Shown piece by piece: positions 1 through 56,544 of a stretch of DNA of 64,000 nucleotides. A model generated the notes under the pieces. The model did not search any database and was not told where the DNA came from. It saw only the letters and a list, made by a program, of their open reading frames with translations. The number at the start of each line of letters is the position of its first letter. The first letter of the stretch is position 1. Both the position numbers and the translations under genes were made by a program. This DNA comes from Thermoanaerobaculia bacterium (GTDB lineage: Bacteria; Acidobacteriota; Thermoanaerobaculia; UBA5066): the NCBI GenBank assembly GCA_022071945.1, contig JAJVIN010000013.1:1-64000 (forward strand). The letters are read 5' to 3'.

Positions 1-963
1 GCCCGTGCCGCCACCGCCACCCGTGCCGCCTCCACCCGTGCCGCCTCCACCGGAGGCTCCTGACTTCACCTCGATGGTGGTGGCGTCGATTGAACCGTCC
101 GGCCGGGACGGACCCTTCACCTCGACCGTCGCGCCGACGGCGACTGGTCCGTTCTCCTGATCGATGACGGTGGACGCGGTGACGTGAACGGTTCTTCCCG
201 AGACGACCCAGTCCCCGACGAGTCCGCTCGCGGGGAGCGCGGAGACGATGCCCGTGTAGCTCGGGTCCGTGCCCCCGCCGCCGGCGCCTCCGCCTGTTCC
301 GCCACCACCGCCAGAACCGCTACCACCGCCTGATCCACCACCGCCACCCGTCCCGCCACCGCCGCCCGACGCGGGCGTCTTTACCTCGATGATCGTGGCG
401 TCCACGGTGCCGTCCGACCGCTCGGTTCCCGTCACCTCGACCGAGGCTCCCGCGACGGCCGGCCCGAGTTCTTGCTCAACCACGGTCGCGGCGGTGACGT
501 GGACGGTCTTGCCGCCGACGACCCAGTCCCCTATGAAGGTGCCGGAAGGGATCGTGGTGATGACGCCGAGAAAGCTGGTCGGCCCGCCACCGCCACCGGT
601 GCCTCCGCCCCCTGTGGCCGGGGACTGGACCTCGATCCGAGTGGCGTCGAAGGAGCCGTCCTGGCGGGACGTCCCGCGAACCTCGACGTAGGCGCCCACG
701 CTCGCGGCCCCGATCTCCTCCTTCAGGACAGTCGACCCCGTGGCGTGGACGGTCCTGCCGCTGACACGCCATTCGCCCGCAATCCCGGAGGGCCGGGCTT
801 CAACCGTCCCGTGAATGCTTGTTTCGCCCGACCCGCCACCACTGCCTTCCAGCCGCGACGAGGCGAGAGAGAGCCCAACCAAGGTGAGAAACAGGAGAGG
901 AACGGCGAGAGCGCGGAGTTTGCGGAAATCAGAAGCCGAAGTGGTACTCATTTGACTGGTCAT
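1..963 (-). CDS. Secreted glycine-linker protein with DUF5666-like repeats (partial, C-terminus outside window)
   Basis: An open frame of 321 codons runs from ATG at 963 off the left edge without a stop. A GAGG motif sits 7 bases before this ATG; a second in-frame ATG at 951 is the alternative start. Residues about 16-36 form one hydrophobic segment, so the product is probably exported or anchored. Three homologous repeats of about 65 residues follow (about 48-112, 129-194, 233-298), each ending in a DGx(I/V/F)DAT-IEV pattern typical of DUF5666-like small beta domains. They are joined by linkers made almost only of glycine with some Thr and Ser. Repeats 2 and 3 are most alike. A further repeat probably lies outside the window. 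The molecular function is unknown; an extracellular or binding role is only inference. Confidence 0.8.
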   Translation of the reverse strand, partial: MTSQMSTTSASDFRKLRALAVPLLFLTLVGLSLASSRLEGSGGGSGETSIHGTVEARPSGIAGEWRVSGRTVHATGSTVLKEEIGAASVGAYVEVRGTSRQDGSFDATRIEVQSPATGGGGTGGGGGPTSFLGVITTIPSGTFIGDWVVGGKTVHVTAATVVEQELGPAVAGASVEVTGTERSDGTVDATIIEVKTPASGGGGGTGGGGGSGGGSGSGGGGGTGGGAGGGGTDPSYTGIVSALPASGLVGDWVVSGRTVHVTASTVIDQENGPVAVGATVEVKGPSRPDGSIDATTIEVKSGASGGGGTGGGGTGGGGGTG

Positions 964-5858: not shown

Positions 5859-6329
5859 ATGAGATCTCCCCAATCTGACTTGCTGCAGGGGCTCTCCGAG
5901 AACGAGGCGGCGCTCGTGATGGCGACGGCGGAGCCGGTGTCGCTTGCGACCGGCGCCGTCCTCTTCCAGCTCGGCGGCGAGGCCGAGCGGCTCTACCTCG
6001 TCGTTCGCGGCCAGATCGATCTGTTGATCCCGATCCGGATCCGCGACCGCGACGAGGACGTCCTGCTCGAGGAGAAGCGCCCCGGTGAGACCCTCGGGTG
6101 GTCGGGTCTCGTGCCCCCTCACCGCTTCACCCTCAAGGCCACCGCTCCGGTCGACACGGAACTCCTGGCCTTTCCCAGGAAGAAGCTCGAGGAACTCTTC
6201 GCGGCCGAGCCCGCTATCGGCCACGCCGTCACCCGCAATGTCGCGGCCGTCATCGGGCACCGCCTCCAGATCTTCCAGGCCATGTGGCTTCGTGAGGTCC
6301 AGAGGATGGTCGAGACCCGCCACGCCTGA
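5859..6329 (+). CDS. Cyclic-nucleotide-binding-domain protein without DNA-binding domain
   Basis: The 156-residue protein consists of one Crp/cNMP-type beta barrel: GAVLFQLGGEAERLYLVVRG near residues 32-51 and PGETLGWSGLV near 75-85 are the usual signatures (LF..G......L..G and the PGE...G phosphate-cassette region). No helix-turn-helix follows, and the tail is a helix (VIGHRLQIFQAMWLREVQRM). Stand-alone CNB proteins often act as ligand sensors or adaptor subunits. The canonical R of the cAMP phosphate cassette is not obvious, so the ligand may differ. Its place inside a respiratory operon, 17 bases before the cytochrome gene, suggests a regulatory or structural role for the complex. That is inference. 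Confidence 0.85.
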   Translation: MRSPQSDLLQGLSENEAALVMATAEPVSLATGAVLFQLGGEAERLYLVVRGQIDLLIPIRIRDRDEDVLLEEKRPGETLGWSGLVPPHRFTLKATAPVDTELLAFPRKKLEELFAAEPAIGHAVTRNVAAVIGHRLQIFQAMWLREVQRMVETRHA

Positions 6330-6346
6330 ACGCCGGTGCAAGCGAG

Positions 6347-6871
6347 ATGAGAATCGCCTTCCTCGTCCTGTTCTTGCCGGTGGCGCTCCTCCCGCTTTCC
6401 GCCGCGTCACCTTCCGCGAAGAAGGCGGAGGAACGGCCCGAGGTGCCTCCCCCTCCCTTCACGGACGGCATCTTCCCGTGCTCGGGGTGCCACGCCACGA
6501 TGGAGGTGAACCCGAAGCGCCGCGCTCTTACGGAGTTCCACGACGACATCGTGTTGAGACACGACGAGGAGCACCGGTGGTGTCTCGACTGCCACGACGC
6601 CAAGGACCGGGACTCTCTCCACTCGGCCAGCGGGGAGCTGATCCCGTTCTCGGAGTCGTACCGGCTGTGCGGACAGTGCCACGGCGAGAAGTTCAGGGAC
6701 TGGAAGGCGGGCGTGCACGGGCGCCGGTCCGGCGACTGGAACGGCCACAAGACGTACCTCCTGTGCGCCCACTGTCACAACCCTCATCAGCCTCGGTTCC
6801 GTCCGCTGGCGCCGAAGCCGCCGCCCAGGCCGCCACAACGCCCAGGATCGACGAAGGGAGGTTCGCGATGA
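6347..6871 (+). CDS. Periplasmic tetraheme cytochrome c
   Basis: A Sec-type signal peptide (residues 1-20, cleavage likely after an Ala-Ala) precedes a 174-residue protein with four CXXCH heme c motifs: CSGCH 45-49, CLDCH 79-83, CGQCH 108-112 and CAHCH 140-144. Extra histidines (H65, H71, H76, H124, H147) can act as distal ligands. The C-terminus is a Pro-rich tail. The gene overlaps the next by ATGA, so the two are translationally coupled. With the following ferredoxin and NrfD-like genes it resembles NrfBCD-, Hmc- or Dsr(J)OP-type modules that move electrons between the quinone pool and periplasmic carriers. No catalytic reductase subunit is encoded here. Confidence 0.93.
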   Translation: MRIAFLVLFLPVALLPLSAASPSAKKAEERPEVPPPPFTDGIFPCSGCHATMEVNPKRRALTEFHDDIVLRHDEEHRWCLDCHDAKDRDSLHSASGELIPFSESYRLCGQCHGEKFRDWKAGVHGRRSGDWNGHKTYLLCAHCHNPHQPRFRPLAPKPPPRPPQRPGSTKGGSR

Positions 6872-7749
6872 ACCAGGGTCCGGAACAGGCGGACGGACTC
6901 TCCCGCCGGCAGGTCATGGCGGGGGCGGCCGGTGCCGCGGCCGCAATGATCCTGACGTCCTGCGGTCCCAAGAGTCTCCACGAAGTCCCGAAGGACCGCC
7001 TCCTCTCACTCGTGGCGGAGATGGAGAAGACGTACAAGGAGAAACTCGGAGCCGATATCAAGGTCGGAACCGAGCCGGCCCTGCCGGGCGTGGAGTTCGC
7101 CTATGCGCTCGACATCTCACGGTGTGTGGGCTGCCGGCGCTGCGTCTATGCCTGCGTCGAGGAGAACAACCAGTCGCGGGACCCCCAGATCCACTGGATC
7201 AAGGTCCTCTCGATGGAAAAGGAGAAGGGCGTCGACTTCGCCCACGCCGGCGCCTACTACGACCCGAAGGAAGTTCCCGAGGACGGGCACTTCTACGTGC
7301 CCGTCGCGTGCCAGCAGTGCCGCAATGCTCCCTGCACGAAGGTCTGCCCGACGGGGGCCACGTGGACCGAGCGCGACGGGATCGTCGTCATCGACTACGA
7401 CTGGTGCATCGGATGCCGCTACTGCATGGCGGCGTGCCCCTACGGGGCGCGGCACTTCAACTGGACGACGCCGGGTCTTCCCACCGCCGAGATCAACAAG
7501 AACACCCACTACATCGGCAACCGGCCGCGCCCGTCAGGCGTCGTCGAGAAGTGCACGTTCTGCATCCAGCGGACGCGCAACGGCCGCTATCCCGCGTGTG
7601 TGGAGGTCTGCCCCGCGGGAGCCAGGAAGTTCGGGAACCTCCTCGATCCTGGCAGCGAGATCCGGTACATCATCGAGCACAAGCGCGTCCTCGTTCTGAA
7701 AGAAGATCTCAACACGCTCCCCAAGTTCTTCTACTTCTACGCGACGTGA
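6868..7749 (+). CDS. Tat-exported four-[4Fe-4S] ferredoxin (NrfC/DsrO/HmcB-like)
   Basis: ATG 6868 overlaps the cytochrome stop as ATGA and gives 293 residues. An earlier in-frame start would run antisense-like through the cytochrome gene. The N-terminus has a twin-arginine signal (SRRQVM, Arg13-Arg14), then a hydrophobic stretch ending in a lipobox-like LTSC (Cys32), so it may be a Tat-exported lipoprotein. Four cysteine clusters follow: CVGCRRCVYAC, CQQCRNAPCTKVCP, CIGCRYCMAACP and a split fourth set CTFC...CVEVCP. This arrangement is standard for electron-transfer subunits that pair with NrfD-type membrane proteins. The partner gene starts 8 bases after the stop. Confidence 0.93.
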   Translation: MNQGPEQADGLSRRQVMAGAAGAAAAMILTSCGPKSLHEVPKDRLLSLVAEMEKTYKEKLGADIKVGTEPALPGVEFAYALDISRCVGCRRCVYACVEENNQSRDPQIHWIKVLSMEKEKGVDFAHAGAYYDPKEVPEDGHFYVPVACQQCRNAPCTKVCPTGATWTERDGIVVIDYDWCIGCRYCMAACPYGARHFNWTTPGLPTAEINKNTHYIGNRPRPSGVVEKCTFCIQRTRNGRYPACVEVCPAGARKFGNLLDPGSEIRYIIEHKRVLVLKEDLNTLPKFFYFYAT

Positions 7750-7756
7750 GGCTTCC

Positions 7757-9001
7757 GTGAGTTTCATCCACCTCTTCTCCCGCTTCACATGGGGAAGCGT
7801 CCGGCTCGTGACGCGCGGAAACCGCCTCTACTGGACCTGGATCGTCTTCCTCCTGGCCCTGATCGTGTGGGGCCTCTTCGCCTTCGCGGAGCAGGTCCGG
7901 GGTGGTCTCGTCGTGACGGCCATGCGGGACCAGGTGAGCTGGGCCTTCTACATCGGCAACTTCACGTTTCTCGTCGGGGTCGCGGCCGCGGCCGTCATCC
8001 TCGTGATACCGGCCTACGTGTACGACTGGAAACCGATCCGGCACATCGTCGTCTACGGGGAGCTTCTGGCCGTCAGCGCCATCGTCATGTGCCTCCTGTT
8101 CGTCCTCGTCGACATCGGCCGGCCCGACCGGTTCTGGCACCTCCTGCCGCCAGTCGGATATCTGAACTTCCCCGATTCGATCCTCGCCTGGGACGTCCTC
8201 GTTCTCAACATCTACTTCCTCGTGAACTTCCTCGTCGTCACCCACATCCTCTACAGGGCGTTCACGGGCCGCGCGTACGAAAAACGCCTGGTCATCCCCC
8301 TGGTTCTCTTCTCCATCCCGATGGCTGTCGGCATTCACACCGTGACGGCGTTTCTCTACAACGGACTGGCCGCCCGCCCGTACTGGAACGCCTCGATCCT
8401 GGCACCCCAGTTCCTGGCCTCGGCCTTCTGTTCCGGTCCCGCGATTCTGCTGTTTCTCCTCCAGCTCCTGAGGCACTTCACCCGCTTCGAGATTCCCGAC
8501 GAGGCGATCTGGAAGATCGCCGAGCTGATGGCCTATGCCATGTTCCTGAACCTCTTCTTGCACGGGGCGGAGGCGTTCAAGGAGTACTACTCGGGCACCG
8601 AGCACCTGCTCTACACGCGCTACTGGTACCAGGGACTCGGCGAGCACCGGACCCTCGTCCCGTTCGCGTGGACGGCGGTGATCCTGAACCTCGTCTCGTT
8701 CGCGCTCTTCATCGTGCCGGCGGCGCGGCGCAACCCGGTCACCCTCAATCTGGGGTGCCTGGCCACCTACGCGGGCGTCTACATCGAGAAGGGGATGGGC
8801 TTGATCATCCCGGGCCTCACGCCCGACTCGCTGGGCGAGATCTACCAGTACTACCCGACGATGATCGAACTCCGCGTGGCGGCAGGCATCTTCGCCACGG
8901 GCTTCCTGCTCTTCACCCTGATGCTCAAGGTCGCCGTGCCCATCTCACTCGGCGAATTCCGGTTGAATGGAGCGCCCGTCCCCCTGTCGGATCCACACTG
9001 A
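7757..9001 (+). CDS. NrfD/DsrP-type quinol-interacting membrane subunit
   Basis: A 414-residue integral membrane protein starting at GTG 7757, with about nine or ten hydrophobic helices spread over the whole length. Family patterns of polysulfide reductase NrfD proteins are visible: W-x-FYIGNFTFLVGVAAAAV near residues 62-80, DIGRPDRFWHLL near 118-130 and GTEHLLYTRYWYQG near 282-296. Such subunits exchange electrons between menaquinol or ubiquinol and a four-cluster ferredoxin. It is the last gene of the operon driven from 5475 and closely follows its ferredoxin partner. The lack of a molybdopterin or heme catalytic subunit leaves the acceptor open. Confidence 0.92.
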   Translation: MSFIHLFSRFTWGSVRLVTRGNRLYWTWIVFLLALIVWGLFAFAEQVRGGLVVTAMRDQVSWAFYIGNFTFLVGVAAAAVILVIPAYVYDWKPIRHIVVYGELLAVSAIVMCLLFVLVDIGRPDRFWHLLPPVGYLNFPDSILAWDVLVLNIYFLVNFLVVTHILYRAFTGRAYEKRLVIPLVLFSIPMAVGIHTVTAFLYNGLAARPYWNASILAPQFLASAFCSGPAILLFLLQLLRHFTRFEIPDEAIWKIAELMAYAMFLNLFLHGAEAFKEYYSGTEHLLYTRYWYQGLGEHRTLVPFAWTAVILNLVSFALFIVPAARRNPVTLNLGCLATYAGVYIEKGMGLIIPGLTPDSLGEIYQYYPTMIELRVAAGIFATGFLLFTLMLKVAVPISLGEFRLNGAPVPLSDPH

Positions 9002-10902: not shown

Positions 10903-11790
10903 TCAGGGAACCGGCCGGAACCGGGTCGGTCCCGGCGGCGGCTCCTCCCTCGCGAGGTAGCTCATCGCGTCCTCGCCCAGGACGGACTTCACCGCCTCCG
11001 TGAGCCGCGCCTGAAGAGACGCGGAGGGGAACTCCTTGCGGGAGGGGTCGTCCAGGGAGAGGCGCTTGAGCGCGTAGCGGGCGATGTTGATTCCATCCCT
11101 GACTGTGTAGACCTCGTCGGCCGCGTGGGCGCGCGCCAGGAACCTCACGACGAACCTCAGGAGCTCCTCCGGTGCGAACGGGAGGTTGTTGGAGAGGATC
11201 TCGAACTCCTCGTCCTCGTCTGGGAAGTCCACCAGGATCTGCGGCGTCAGCCGCGAGTGGATGTAGTCCGGCAGCTCGAATGTCGAGGCGTCGTCGTTCA
11301 TCGTCGTGACGAAGCGAAACTCCGGATGCGCTCGAACCTTGATGCCCGCAACGATCGACTCGACCGTGCGGCGGGCATCGAGGAGCGGAGCCAGAGAGGC
11401 CCAGGATTTCTCGCTCATCCTGTTCCCCTCGTCGAGGACGGCGACGCCGCCCTTCAACATCGCCGTCACGATGCTCGACGCCACGTACCGGATCCTCCCT
11501 TCGCCCGCCAGGACCGGCGTGATGATCAGGTCCTCTGGCCTCGTGTCGAGAGTCGCCTGGAAGATGTAGACCGGCCGGCCGAGCCGTTTCGCGGCGGCGT
11601 AGGCGAGTGTCGTCTTGCCGACTCCGGGCTTCCCGATCAGTCGTGGGTTGAGCGGGAGGTCTCGCGGCTCGACCACGAGCCAGGCCGCCAGGAGCTGACG
11701 GACGAGCTCTTCGCGGCCGGTCCATTCCATCGGGAGATCGTCGGGGTGCGCCAGAGTGATCTCGACGCCCTCGATCCGGACAGTTTCCAT
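10903..11790 (-). CDS. MoxR-type AAA+ ATPase
   Basis: A 295-residue AAA+ protein. Walker A is GKPGVGKTT (residues 53-61), Walker B is VAVLDEGN, and the sensor-type segment FRFVTTMNDD follows. Ahead of Walker A sits the MoxR-like ligand-detecting start (WTGREELVRQLLAAWLV). The lid domain at the C-terminus is present (LLRFVVRFLARAHAADE). MoxR proteins are chaperone-like ATPases that usually remodel VWA-containing partners or metal enzymes. This one is coupled to the unrelated protein encoded at 9059-10900, two bases downstream. No VWA protein is encoded in the window. Confidence 0.88.
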   Translation of the reverse strand: METVRIEGVEITLAHPDDLPMEWTGREELVRQLLAAWLVVEPRDLPLNPRLIGKPGVGKTTLAYAAAKRLGRPVYIFQATLDTRPEDLIITPVLAGEGRIRYVASSIVTAMLKGGVAVLDEGNRMSEKSWASLAPLLDARRTVESIVAGIKVRAHPEFRFVTTMNDDASTFELPDYIHSRLTPQILVDFPDEDEEFEILSNNLPFAPEELLRFVVRFLARAHAADEVYTVRDGINIARYALKRLSLDDPSRKEFPSASLQARLTEAVKSVLGEDAMSYLAREEPPPGPTRFRPVP

Positions 11791-11857: not shown

Positions 11858-12193
11858 CTACTTCTCTCCGAGAAGGGCTCGCAGTGCTTCCTCGTTGAAC
11901 CCGACGAGGAGGGTCTTGCCGTTCCTGACCATCGGCGCCCTGAAATTTCCGGTCGGGCCGCGCAGATCGCCGGGCGAGGCCTCCGCGGCCTTCAGTTCGA
12001 CCGTCTTTTTTCCCTTGGCCACGATCACCCTCGACACCGAGGCGAGGAGCGCCTTGGCGTCCTCGTCCGTGATGGGCTGTGAGCGGGACGCGCGGGATTC
12101 CTTGGGAGTGACCTCGAGATCCGTGAGCACCGCACGGGTGCGTTCGCAGCTCGTTCACCCCACGCGGTAGTAGTAGAAGTCCGCCTTGGCCAT
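11858..12193 (-). CDS. Spx/ArsC-type thioredoxin-fold selenoprotein (in-frame TGA = Sec13)
   Basis: Reading from ATG 12193 through an in-frame TGA (12155-12157) gives 111 residues of one continuous thioredoxin-fold protein. A GAGGAGG ribosome site lies just before the ATG. The N-terminus YYYRVG-U-TSCERTRAVL aligns with the Spx/ArsC active-site region, where the TGA replaces the redox cysteine of a CTSC motif. The resolving Cys is Cys16. Downstream, RAPMVRNGK (cis-Pro87) and LLVGFNEEALRALLG match the conserved C-terminal half of the family. Only 12 residues precede the TGA and the reading frame is kept on both sides, so a frameshift is not needed. A SECIS-like hairpin stands 13 bases after the TGA. 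Alternatives are a nonsense mutation or a sequencing error (TGC to TGA). SelA/SelB/tRNA-Sec genes are not in the window. Confidence 0.82.
12127..12141 (-). promoter_or_regulatory. Putative bacterial SECIS apical stem-loop
   Basis: On the mRNA strand GCACC-CGUGC-GGUGC forms five Watson-Crick pairs closing a 5-base loop whose second base is G. The stem starts 13 bases, and the loop 18 bases, after the TGA. Bacterial SECIS elements are known to lie inside the reading frame just after UGA, with a small apical loop carrying G at its first or second position. A lower stem can extend by further pairs with an internal loop. Confidence 0.6.
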
Positions 12194-12243
12194 GGGGCCC
12201 TCCTCGCCGGGCCGGCTCTGGCGCCGCCCGCATCCGGGTCCGT

Positions 12244-13662
12244 CTAGGGAGAGGTGACGTACTCCCTGAGGACCCGGTCCATTCTCTCAACACCCTCGAT
12301 GAAGTAAACGAGGTTGATCCGCTCGTTCGGATTGTGGACCCGCGTGGCGTCGTAGTAGTTGATGTTGAAGGGGGAGAAACCGTACGCCCTGTACCCGTGA
12401 TCACGCAGGAAAGCCGAACTGGTGTACGCCCCGGTGAGAACGTACGTACCGACTGGGGCCGCCTCGTGGTCTTGCTCGAGGACTCGCAGAAGCGTCTGGA
12501 AGCCGCGGCCCGTCGTCGGTGAGGCCTTGCTGTCCCTGGTCAAGAGCCTCCTCTCGTGGACGAGTTCCCTTTCGTCCAGCCAGCCGCGGAGCGTGTCATC
12601 GGCGGCCGCAATCGAACTGCCGGGCAGAGTTGCCCAGACCGCCCGCATCTCCCAAGAACCCGTCGCGCCCTGCTTCGGGGCCGTGTGGTAGAGCGCGTCC
12701 CTCAGAAACGACTGCAGGATGGACGGCAGGTTCTGCGTCAGAGGATCGTTCATGAGAAAGCGGTTCGGGTCGCGGGCCACCGCGCTGAAGAGGTAGCTCC
12801 GGCCCGAGCTGATGAAGTTCAGGAACTCCTGGATCTCGGGGACGACTCGTCTCGGGAGCCCCTTGTCCTGTTCATCGAGAAACGCAGCGAAATCCCTCAG
12901 CGGCTGCTCCTCTTTCGCGAAGATGTCGTAGCTCGCGTAGCCCTTCTGGAGAATCTCGATGCCGAATCGCTCGACGTCGGAGGTGAGGACCTCGTTCACG
13001 CCTCCCTCGTTGTAGGCGTCCGTGACCCCGTCGAGAAGGTCGGGCCGGTTCTTGACGATCCACTCCAGGCCGATCTCGTGGTTGAACGTCTCCTCCGCCG
13101 GTTCGGCGACGTAGACGACGTCTCGCAGCGGGACGAGCCCGGCTCTCTTCAGCGAGACCATCGCGTAAAACTGCGCGATCCCGAGGCTCTTGATGTCGAT
13201 GGCCCCGCGGCCATAGAGGTAGAAGGTGTCCTGTCGCCTGCCTCGCTCGCCGCCGAAGGGTTCGTAGGCCCAGTCCGTACGAGGCCCCGCCGGGACCACG
13301 TCCGTGTGGTGGAGCAGGAGAAGGGAGTCCTGCCGCGATCGTCCGGAGAGCCTCGCGACGAGGATGGGGCGCTCGGGGTCGGGGCCCGTGATCTCGTAAG
13401 GGATCCCCTCGCAGTCGAAAAGCCGTGCCAGGAACTCGACGGCCTTTCTCGTATGACCCGGAGGATTGCTCGTGTCGATGCGGAGGTACTCGGTGAGGAG
13501 AGCCGTTGCCTCGTGCGACTCGGCGGCCTTGATGTCAAGCTTGCGGATGAAGATCTTCGGGGCCAGCCGCTGAACCAGGAGGGGCCCGCTGAGAACGAGC
13601 GCGGCCAGGACGGTGGCCGTGCCGTAGAGGGCGAGGCGGCGCTTTGTGTTACGGCTCAGCAC
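12244..13662 (-). CDS. Membrane-anchored M20-family metallopeptidase
   Basis: A 472-residue protein with one N-terminal transmembrane segment (about residues 8-31), then an M20/M28-type di-zinc peptidase domain. Metal ligands and catalytic residues are visible: LLLLHHTDVVPAG (His and Asp), GRGAIDIKS (Asp), VAEPAEETF (general base and ligand Glu) and a late Asp/His region near YDATRVHNPNERI. The anchor suggests periplasmic peptide or N-acyl amino-acid hydrolysis. The gene lies 50 bases before the selenoprotein and about 97 bases after the YfhO-like gene on the same strand. Substrate cannot be told from sequence. Confidence 0.9.
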   Translation of the reverse strand: MLSRNTKRRLALYGTATVLAALVLSGPLLVQRLAPKIFIRKLDIKAAESHEATALLTEYLRIDTSNPPGHTRKAVEFLARLFDCEGIPYEITGPDPERPILVARLSGRSRQDSLLLLHHTDVVPAGPRTDWAYEPFGGERGRRQDTFYLYGRGAIDIKSLGIAQFYAMVSLKRAGLVPLRDVVYVAEPAEETFNHEIGLEWIVKNRPDLLDGVTDAYNEGGVNEVLTSDVERFGIEILQKGYASYDIFAKEEQPLRDFAAFLDEQDKGLPRRVVPEIQEFLNFISSGRSYLFSAVARDPNRFLMNDPLTQNLPSILQSFLRDALYHTAPKQGATGSWEMRAVWATLPGSSIAAADDTLRGWLDERELVHERRLLTRDSKASPTTGRGFQTLLRVLEQDHEAAPVGTYVLTGAYTSSAFLRDHGYRAYGFSPFNINYYDATRVHNPNERINLVYFIEGVERMDRVLREYVTSP

Positions 13663-56454: not shown

Positions 56455-56544
56455 GGTGAGGTGCTGGAGTGGTTGATCAGGCCGGTCTCGAAAACCGGTG
56501 TACCCGAAAGGGTACCGTGGGTTCGAATCCCACCCTCACCGCCA
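56455..56544 (+). tRNA. tRNA-Ser (CGA)
   Basis: Acceptor GGTGAGG/CCTCACC, anticodon stem CCGGT/ACCGG with loop CTCGAAA (anticodon CGA), long variable arm GTACCCGAAAGGGTAC, T arm GTGGG-TTCGAAT-CCCAC; CCA encoded at 56542-56544. Confidence 0.97.

Follow-up and report, generated by a model that had tools for sequence, protein, structure and literature searches.

The window, that is, the whole stretch of 64,000 nucleotides that was analyzed, carries on its minus strand a short gene whose frame is interrupted only once, by an in-frame TGA (Table 1). Direct reading from the ATG to the TAG gives the translation MAKADFYYYRVG-U-TSC...LLGEK*, in which a U-T-S-C motif opens with the TGA. Under the standard code, ORF calling recovered only a frame of 90 residues that starts with GTG after the TGA (11858-12130). 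The initial annotation, made from the sequence of this stretch, had described a frame that is coding on both sides of the TGA, a TGA in the place of the first Cys of a CTSC-like motif, a ribosome site before the ATG, and a standard gene call reduced to the 90-residue fragment. All of these observations were confirmed, the motif and the ribosome site by direct reading, the frame by direct reading together with the alignment of homologues across the TGA, and the truncated call by ORF calling.

Table 1. Features of the selenoprotein locus and its neighbors (positions are those of the window)
Feature	Position	Strand	Remarks
Predicted selenoprotein gene	11858..12193	-	111 aa, ArsC/Spx-like thioredoxin fold, motif U13-T-S-C16; ATG at 12193, stop TAG at 11858
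In-frame TGA, predicted to be read as selenocysteine	12155..12157	-	residue 13; codon conserved in relatives
SECIS-like hairpin	12127..12141	-	GCACC/CGTGC/GGTGC, G second in loop; begins 13 nt after the TGA
Shine-Dalgarno region	12197..12205	-	GAGGAGGG, 4-5 nt 5' of the ATG; read directly
M20-family peptidase gene	12244..13662	-	upstream, same strand
AAA_5 (MoxR-like) ATPase gene	10903..11790	-	downstream, same strand, 67 nt after the stop

The upstream peptidase gene was not seen as a conserved neighbor in the loci of relatives, and the downstream ATPase gene also adjoins the selenoprotein gene in part of the loci from the same bacterial family. In the relatives' loci that were compared, no partner gene was conserved beyond close relatives, and the selenoprotein gene stands alone. 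In one related clade (L076, L078-L081, L083-L088), the gene adjoins a Lon-type protease-like gene, as judged by reading the sequence. Elsewhere in the window, on the plus strand at 6085-9001, there are frames resembling a ferredoxin-type subunit and an NrfD-type membrane subunit; by the same kind of reading, they look like parts of an alternative complex III or a related oxidoreductase.

Conservation of the frame and of the TGA codon

Homologues of the protein, 30-57% identical to it and belonging to many phyla, can be aligned through the TGA over residues 1 to about 109, which indicates that the frame running through this codon is more than a chance event. Most of the homologous genes open at an aligned ATG or GTG, and a ribosome site rich in purines often precedes it. 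The protein was found in 36 of 101 related genomes, in every case with a single TGA within the matched region (36/36), and in all 30 loci taken from these genomes the aligned codon was TGA. When a single genome of each species was scanned, 35 loci were obtained, and the family thus spans Acidobacteriota, Planctomycetota, Pseudomonadota, Myxococcota, Rokubacteria, Melainabacteria and others. Among the 33 homologues from these phyla with the codon resolved, it was TGA in 31 and TGC in two (L024 and L043); this count excludes L057, which matches only 3' of the site, and L058, a distant Cys relative. Hence, at residue 13, where the initial annotation had proposed comparing homologues for Cys versus Sec, one or the other was present. 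Ten columns were invariant in an alignment of 44 sequences: Y8, R10, U/C13, G61, G79, G82, P87, G92, V97 and G98. No relative of the protein was found in the viral contigs searched.

A variation of the motif was observed in a Singulisphaera MAG (L056, 3001-3348), where the Sec is kept and the second Cys is replaced (UTTV). The wider family therefore does not strictly depend on the U-x-x-C pair, and this sequence may represent a one-selenol variant.

The recurrence of the codon bears directly on the possibility that translation is restricted to the downstream fragment, the TGA being a genuine stop, an error of sequencing or the mark of a pseudogene. A mechanically called GTG ORF of 90 residues does exist 3' of the TGA, as this explanation would need; however, independent genomes share this TGA, which rules out an error of sequencing, the peptide 5' of the TGA is conserved, and the active site lies at the TGA itself. 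We consider this explanation very improbable.

Selenocysteine machinery and the exchange of Sec for Cys

The initial annotation had proposed a search of the genome for selA, selB, selD and tRNA-Sec, and all four were found in the source genome (6.17 Mb in 69 contigs, 96% complete). The tRNA-Sec, with anticodon TCA, scored 64 bits, above the gathering score of 47, and ARAGORN agreed with this identification; selA and selD matched with 433 and 399 bits, respectively, and for selB the GTPase part and a C-terminal match were located within one frame of 642 aa. With this machinery in place, the TGA recurrent, and Sec or Cys at the site in the homologues, the selenoprotein reading was supported. None of the three results that the initial annotation had listed as contrary to it (lack of Sec machinery, a TGC misread as TGA, homologues devoid of Cys or Sec at the site) appeared.

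Two further genes were noted during this search. The source genome has a second selD-like gene (L019, G000:C37:45501-46466) with one TGA inside the match, possibly encoding a Sec-containing SelD. Within the window, a tRNA gene on the plus strand (56455-56544) scored 48.7 with the Rfam tRNA-Sec model, whose gathering score is 47; ARAGORN reads it as a tRNA-Ser with anticodon CGA, and as a tRNA-Sec it was rejected as a false positive of the Rfam model.

The presence of the full Sec machinery also argues against a genome-wide reassignment of TGA to an ordinary amino acid, a reading for which no supporting evidence was found. In related genomes, many genes of this same family terminate with TGA as a normal stop; the code is therefore not reassigned, and the probability of this reading is practically negligible. 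Given the TGA in 36/36 genomes and its use as a terminator in many of the homologous genes, an alternative code, a sequencing error and a pseudogene were all rejected.

SelA exceeded the cut-off in 14 of the 15 Sec-form genomes tested, which belong to many phyla; the fifteenth, the MAG that contains L049, gave only weak and partial selA matches. Inside the class of the window, selA occurs in 98 of 101 genomes, and since it is nearly universal there its co-occurrence with the gene says nothing and was discarded as evidence. The literature collection consulted contained nothing on Sec in Thermoanaerobaculia. In the tree, the two Cys forms are placed in different clades, each amid Sec forms. One of them, L043, belongs to the Obscuribacterales and comes from a genome with no selA match, while the Obscuribacterales genome of L044 combines the Sec form with selA; this pair constitutes a natural test of the benefit of Sec. 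The genome of the other Cys form, L024, does have selA.

The hairpin downstream of the TGA

The initial annotation had pointed out a 5-bp hairpin with a G in the second loop position, 13 nt after the TGA, and direct reading bore this out. The bSECIS model considers loops of 3-9 nt, stems of 4-16 bp, a G in the first two loop positions, a distance of 16-37 nt from the UGA and an MFE of at most -7.5 (PMC13188914). The window hairpin lies within these limits, with a loop of 5 nt, a stem of 5 bp, the G in second position, a spacing of 18 nt and an MFE of -7.8 kcal/mol, the last barely past the limit of -7.5. When the hairpin was folded alone and compared with shuffled sequence, the difference was not significant (z -0.61), and randomization of synonymous codons did not yield a significant result either (p 0.19). 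The folding check suggested in the initial annotation was therefore satisfactory with regard to the bSECIS limits and failed to give single-sequence significance; the support for the hairpin comes from the relatives. Randomizing synonymous codons in each of 53 sequences gave a mean z of -1.24 with a consistent direction, and p was below 0.05 in only 8 of the 53.

In the clade of the window (clade A, 21 sequences), the five stem pairs (+14..18/+24..28) are invariant. At the silent sites of the stem, the Arg codon was CGC in 17/17 cases, the Thr codon ACC in 21/21 and the Val codon GTG in 21/21, against frequencies of 0.55, 0.50 and 0.30 for these codons elsewhere in the same genes, a comparison in which kinship is ignored. 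The other main group, also of 21 sequences, shows a 7-bp stem (+16..22/+29..35) and a loop that in most of them opens with AGUU. In this group 97% of the stem cells pair, versus 20-37% after one side has been shifted by 1-3 nt, and in a third set of seven sequences, with a register one nucleotide shorter, the pairing is 92%; these percentages lean towards structure because the sets were picked by eye after the folds had been seen. Covariation was observed in the other main group at the pair 18-33, where GC, CG, AT and TA all occur; a silent position of an Ala codon here faces the third position of a codon for Asp or Glu. Four planctomycete-type sequences that keep the TGA (L037, L046, L051 and L055) were left out of the sets because neither hairpin register fits them. 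Regarding the Cys forms, no stem of at least 5 pairs was found in L024, and in L043 the aligned hairpin is degraded, with other out-of-register pairing possible.

According to the predicted folds, the SECIS loop of the Acidobacteriota clade lies about 4 nt closer to the TGA than in the rest of the family, a mildly new point. The occurrence of two registers within one family bears on how a SECIS element moves under protein constraint.

Family, fold and predicted role

With Cys written in place of Sec, the protein scored 88.7 bits with NF041106 (ArsC_rel_Se_1, 'ArsC family (seleno)protein'), above the curated cut-off of 85; in a six-frame DNA search the window gene reached 80.9 bits against the same cut-off. 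Considering all of the above, we assign a probability of about 93% to the reading that 11858-12193 is a real gene, encoding a predicted selenoprotein that belongs to this known ArsC-related family. As a recoded selenoprotein gene it is well supported, and ordinary gene calling truncates it and hides its active site.

A profile built from the 44 homologues matched Spx best among known structures (E 7e-10). The AlphaFold2 model of the protein (pLDDT 92, pTM 0.83) also had Spx as its best fold match (Z 10.4, rmsd 2.2 Å over 88 residues), followed by ArsC-like proteins and NrdH/glutaredoxins. The Spx/ArsC fold proposed in the initial annotation was thus right by both sequence profile and predicted structure. 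Starting from what was computed here, namely a conserved frame, the Sec machinery of the genome, the exchange of Sec for Cys, a hairpin that is conserved and covaries, the match to the family and the predicted fold, we infer the incorporation of Sec, a redox cycle and the kind of substrate as follows. SelB would recognize the hairpin just 3' of the UGA and deliver Sec-tRNA(Sec), whereby the UGA would be read as Sec13. Sec13 and Cys16, located where helix 1 of the thioredoxin fold begins, would constitute a U-x-x-C redox pair, with C16 as the resolving partner of U13. This pair would most likely cycle between the reduced selenol/thiol and the selenylsulfide, and the cycle would reduce a disulfide or another oxidized substrate.

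The similarity with Spx raises the possibility that the protein is a transcription regulator similar to Spx, its U-x-x-C pair being a rapid redox switch that acts on RNA polymerase. The protein resembles Spx of B. subtilis (PDB 1z3e, 3gfk, 3ihq) in its fold (Z about 10, 25% identity) and in the position of the C-x-x-C motif, since in the profile alignment U13 and C16 align with C10 and C13 of Spx, with Sec in the place of Cys10. However, the same alignment has a gap of four residues over TEDG, the alpha-CTD loop that includes Gly52; the protein stops at about residue 116 of Spx and lacks the C-terminal tail; and Arg92 of Spx corresponds to Ala86, a position occupied by Ala in 43 of the 44 homologues and preceded by an Arg at 85. 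Gly52 of Spx is a contact with RNA polymerase. We regard a regulator of this kind as quite unlikely.

U13 occupies the position of the catalytic Cys of ArsC, in which Arg94 is the Arg of the R-P motif. A selenium-dependent arsenate reductase is suggested by the name and fold of the ArsC family, by the ArsC structures among the top matches, and by the UxxS arsenate reductase selenoproteins known from the Sargasso Sea (PMC1088965), which share with the window protein the ArsC superfamily and a Sec in first position of the active site. In contrast to those proteins, the motif here is UxxC and the R-P arginine is absent; this catalytic Arg of the classical glutaredoxin-coupled ArsC arsenate reductase is replaced by Ala86, and the Arg is found one position earlier. 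Moreover, a family scan of the neighbors in the window found no adjoining arsenic gene. An arsenate reductase therefore appears unlikely. Because the TEDG loop is missing in the profile alignment and the Arg that stands before the conserved proline in Spx and ArsC is Ala here, we favor as the likeliest role, with fair confidence, that of a general Sec-dependent thiol-disulfide oxidoreductase.

The family itself is already described, a point that the initial annotation had overlooked, and the window gene is an ordinary further member of it. In a 2026 review of prokaryotic selenoproteins, NF041106 is listed as 'Arsenate reductase-like protein', with a UxxC motif and as a high-confidence prediction; the functions of nearly all computationally found families are there considered largely uncharacterized (PMC13188914). 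The earlier study cited for NF041106 in the table of that review is probably the GOS selenoproteome of 2008, which reported 'Arsenate reductase 2' (cd03032), a selenoprotein of the UxxC ArsC/Spx type (PMC2398784); by description only, the window protein is of the same type. Like other NF041106 members, it has a similar length, a UxxC site (UTSC in this case) and exchange of Sec for Cys. In contrast to the rest of the family, its clade forms a separate deep branch in the tree, and the DNA matches of this clade fall mostly under the cut-off in the six-frame search. This divergent Acidobacteriota clade, the two SECIS registers in one family and the Obscuribacterales Sec/Cys pair are mildly new points. 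It is conceivable, although we hold it only tentatively, that the Acidobacteriota clade is a distinct Sec-dependent reductase subfamily with a substrate of its own and a hairpin that moved within the coding sequence; if so, the conflict between peptide and RNA constraints would have been solved in two ways within NF041106.
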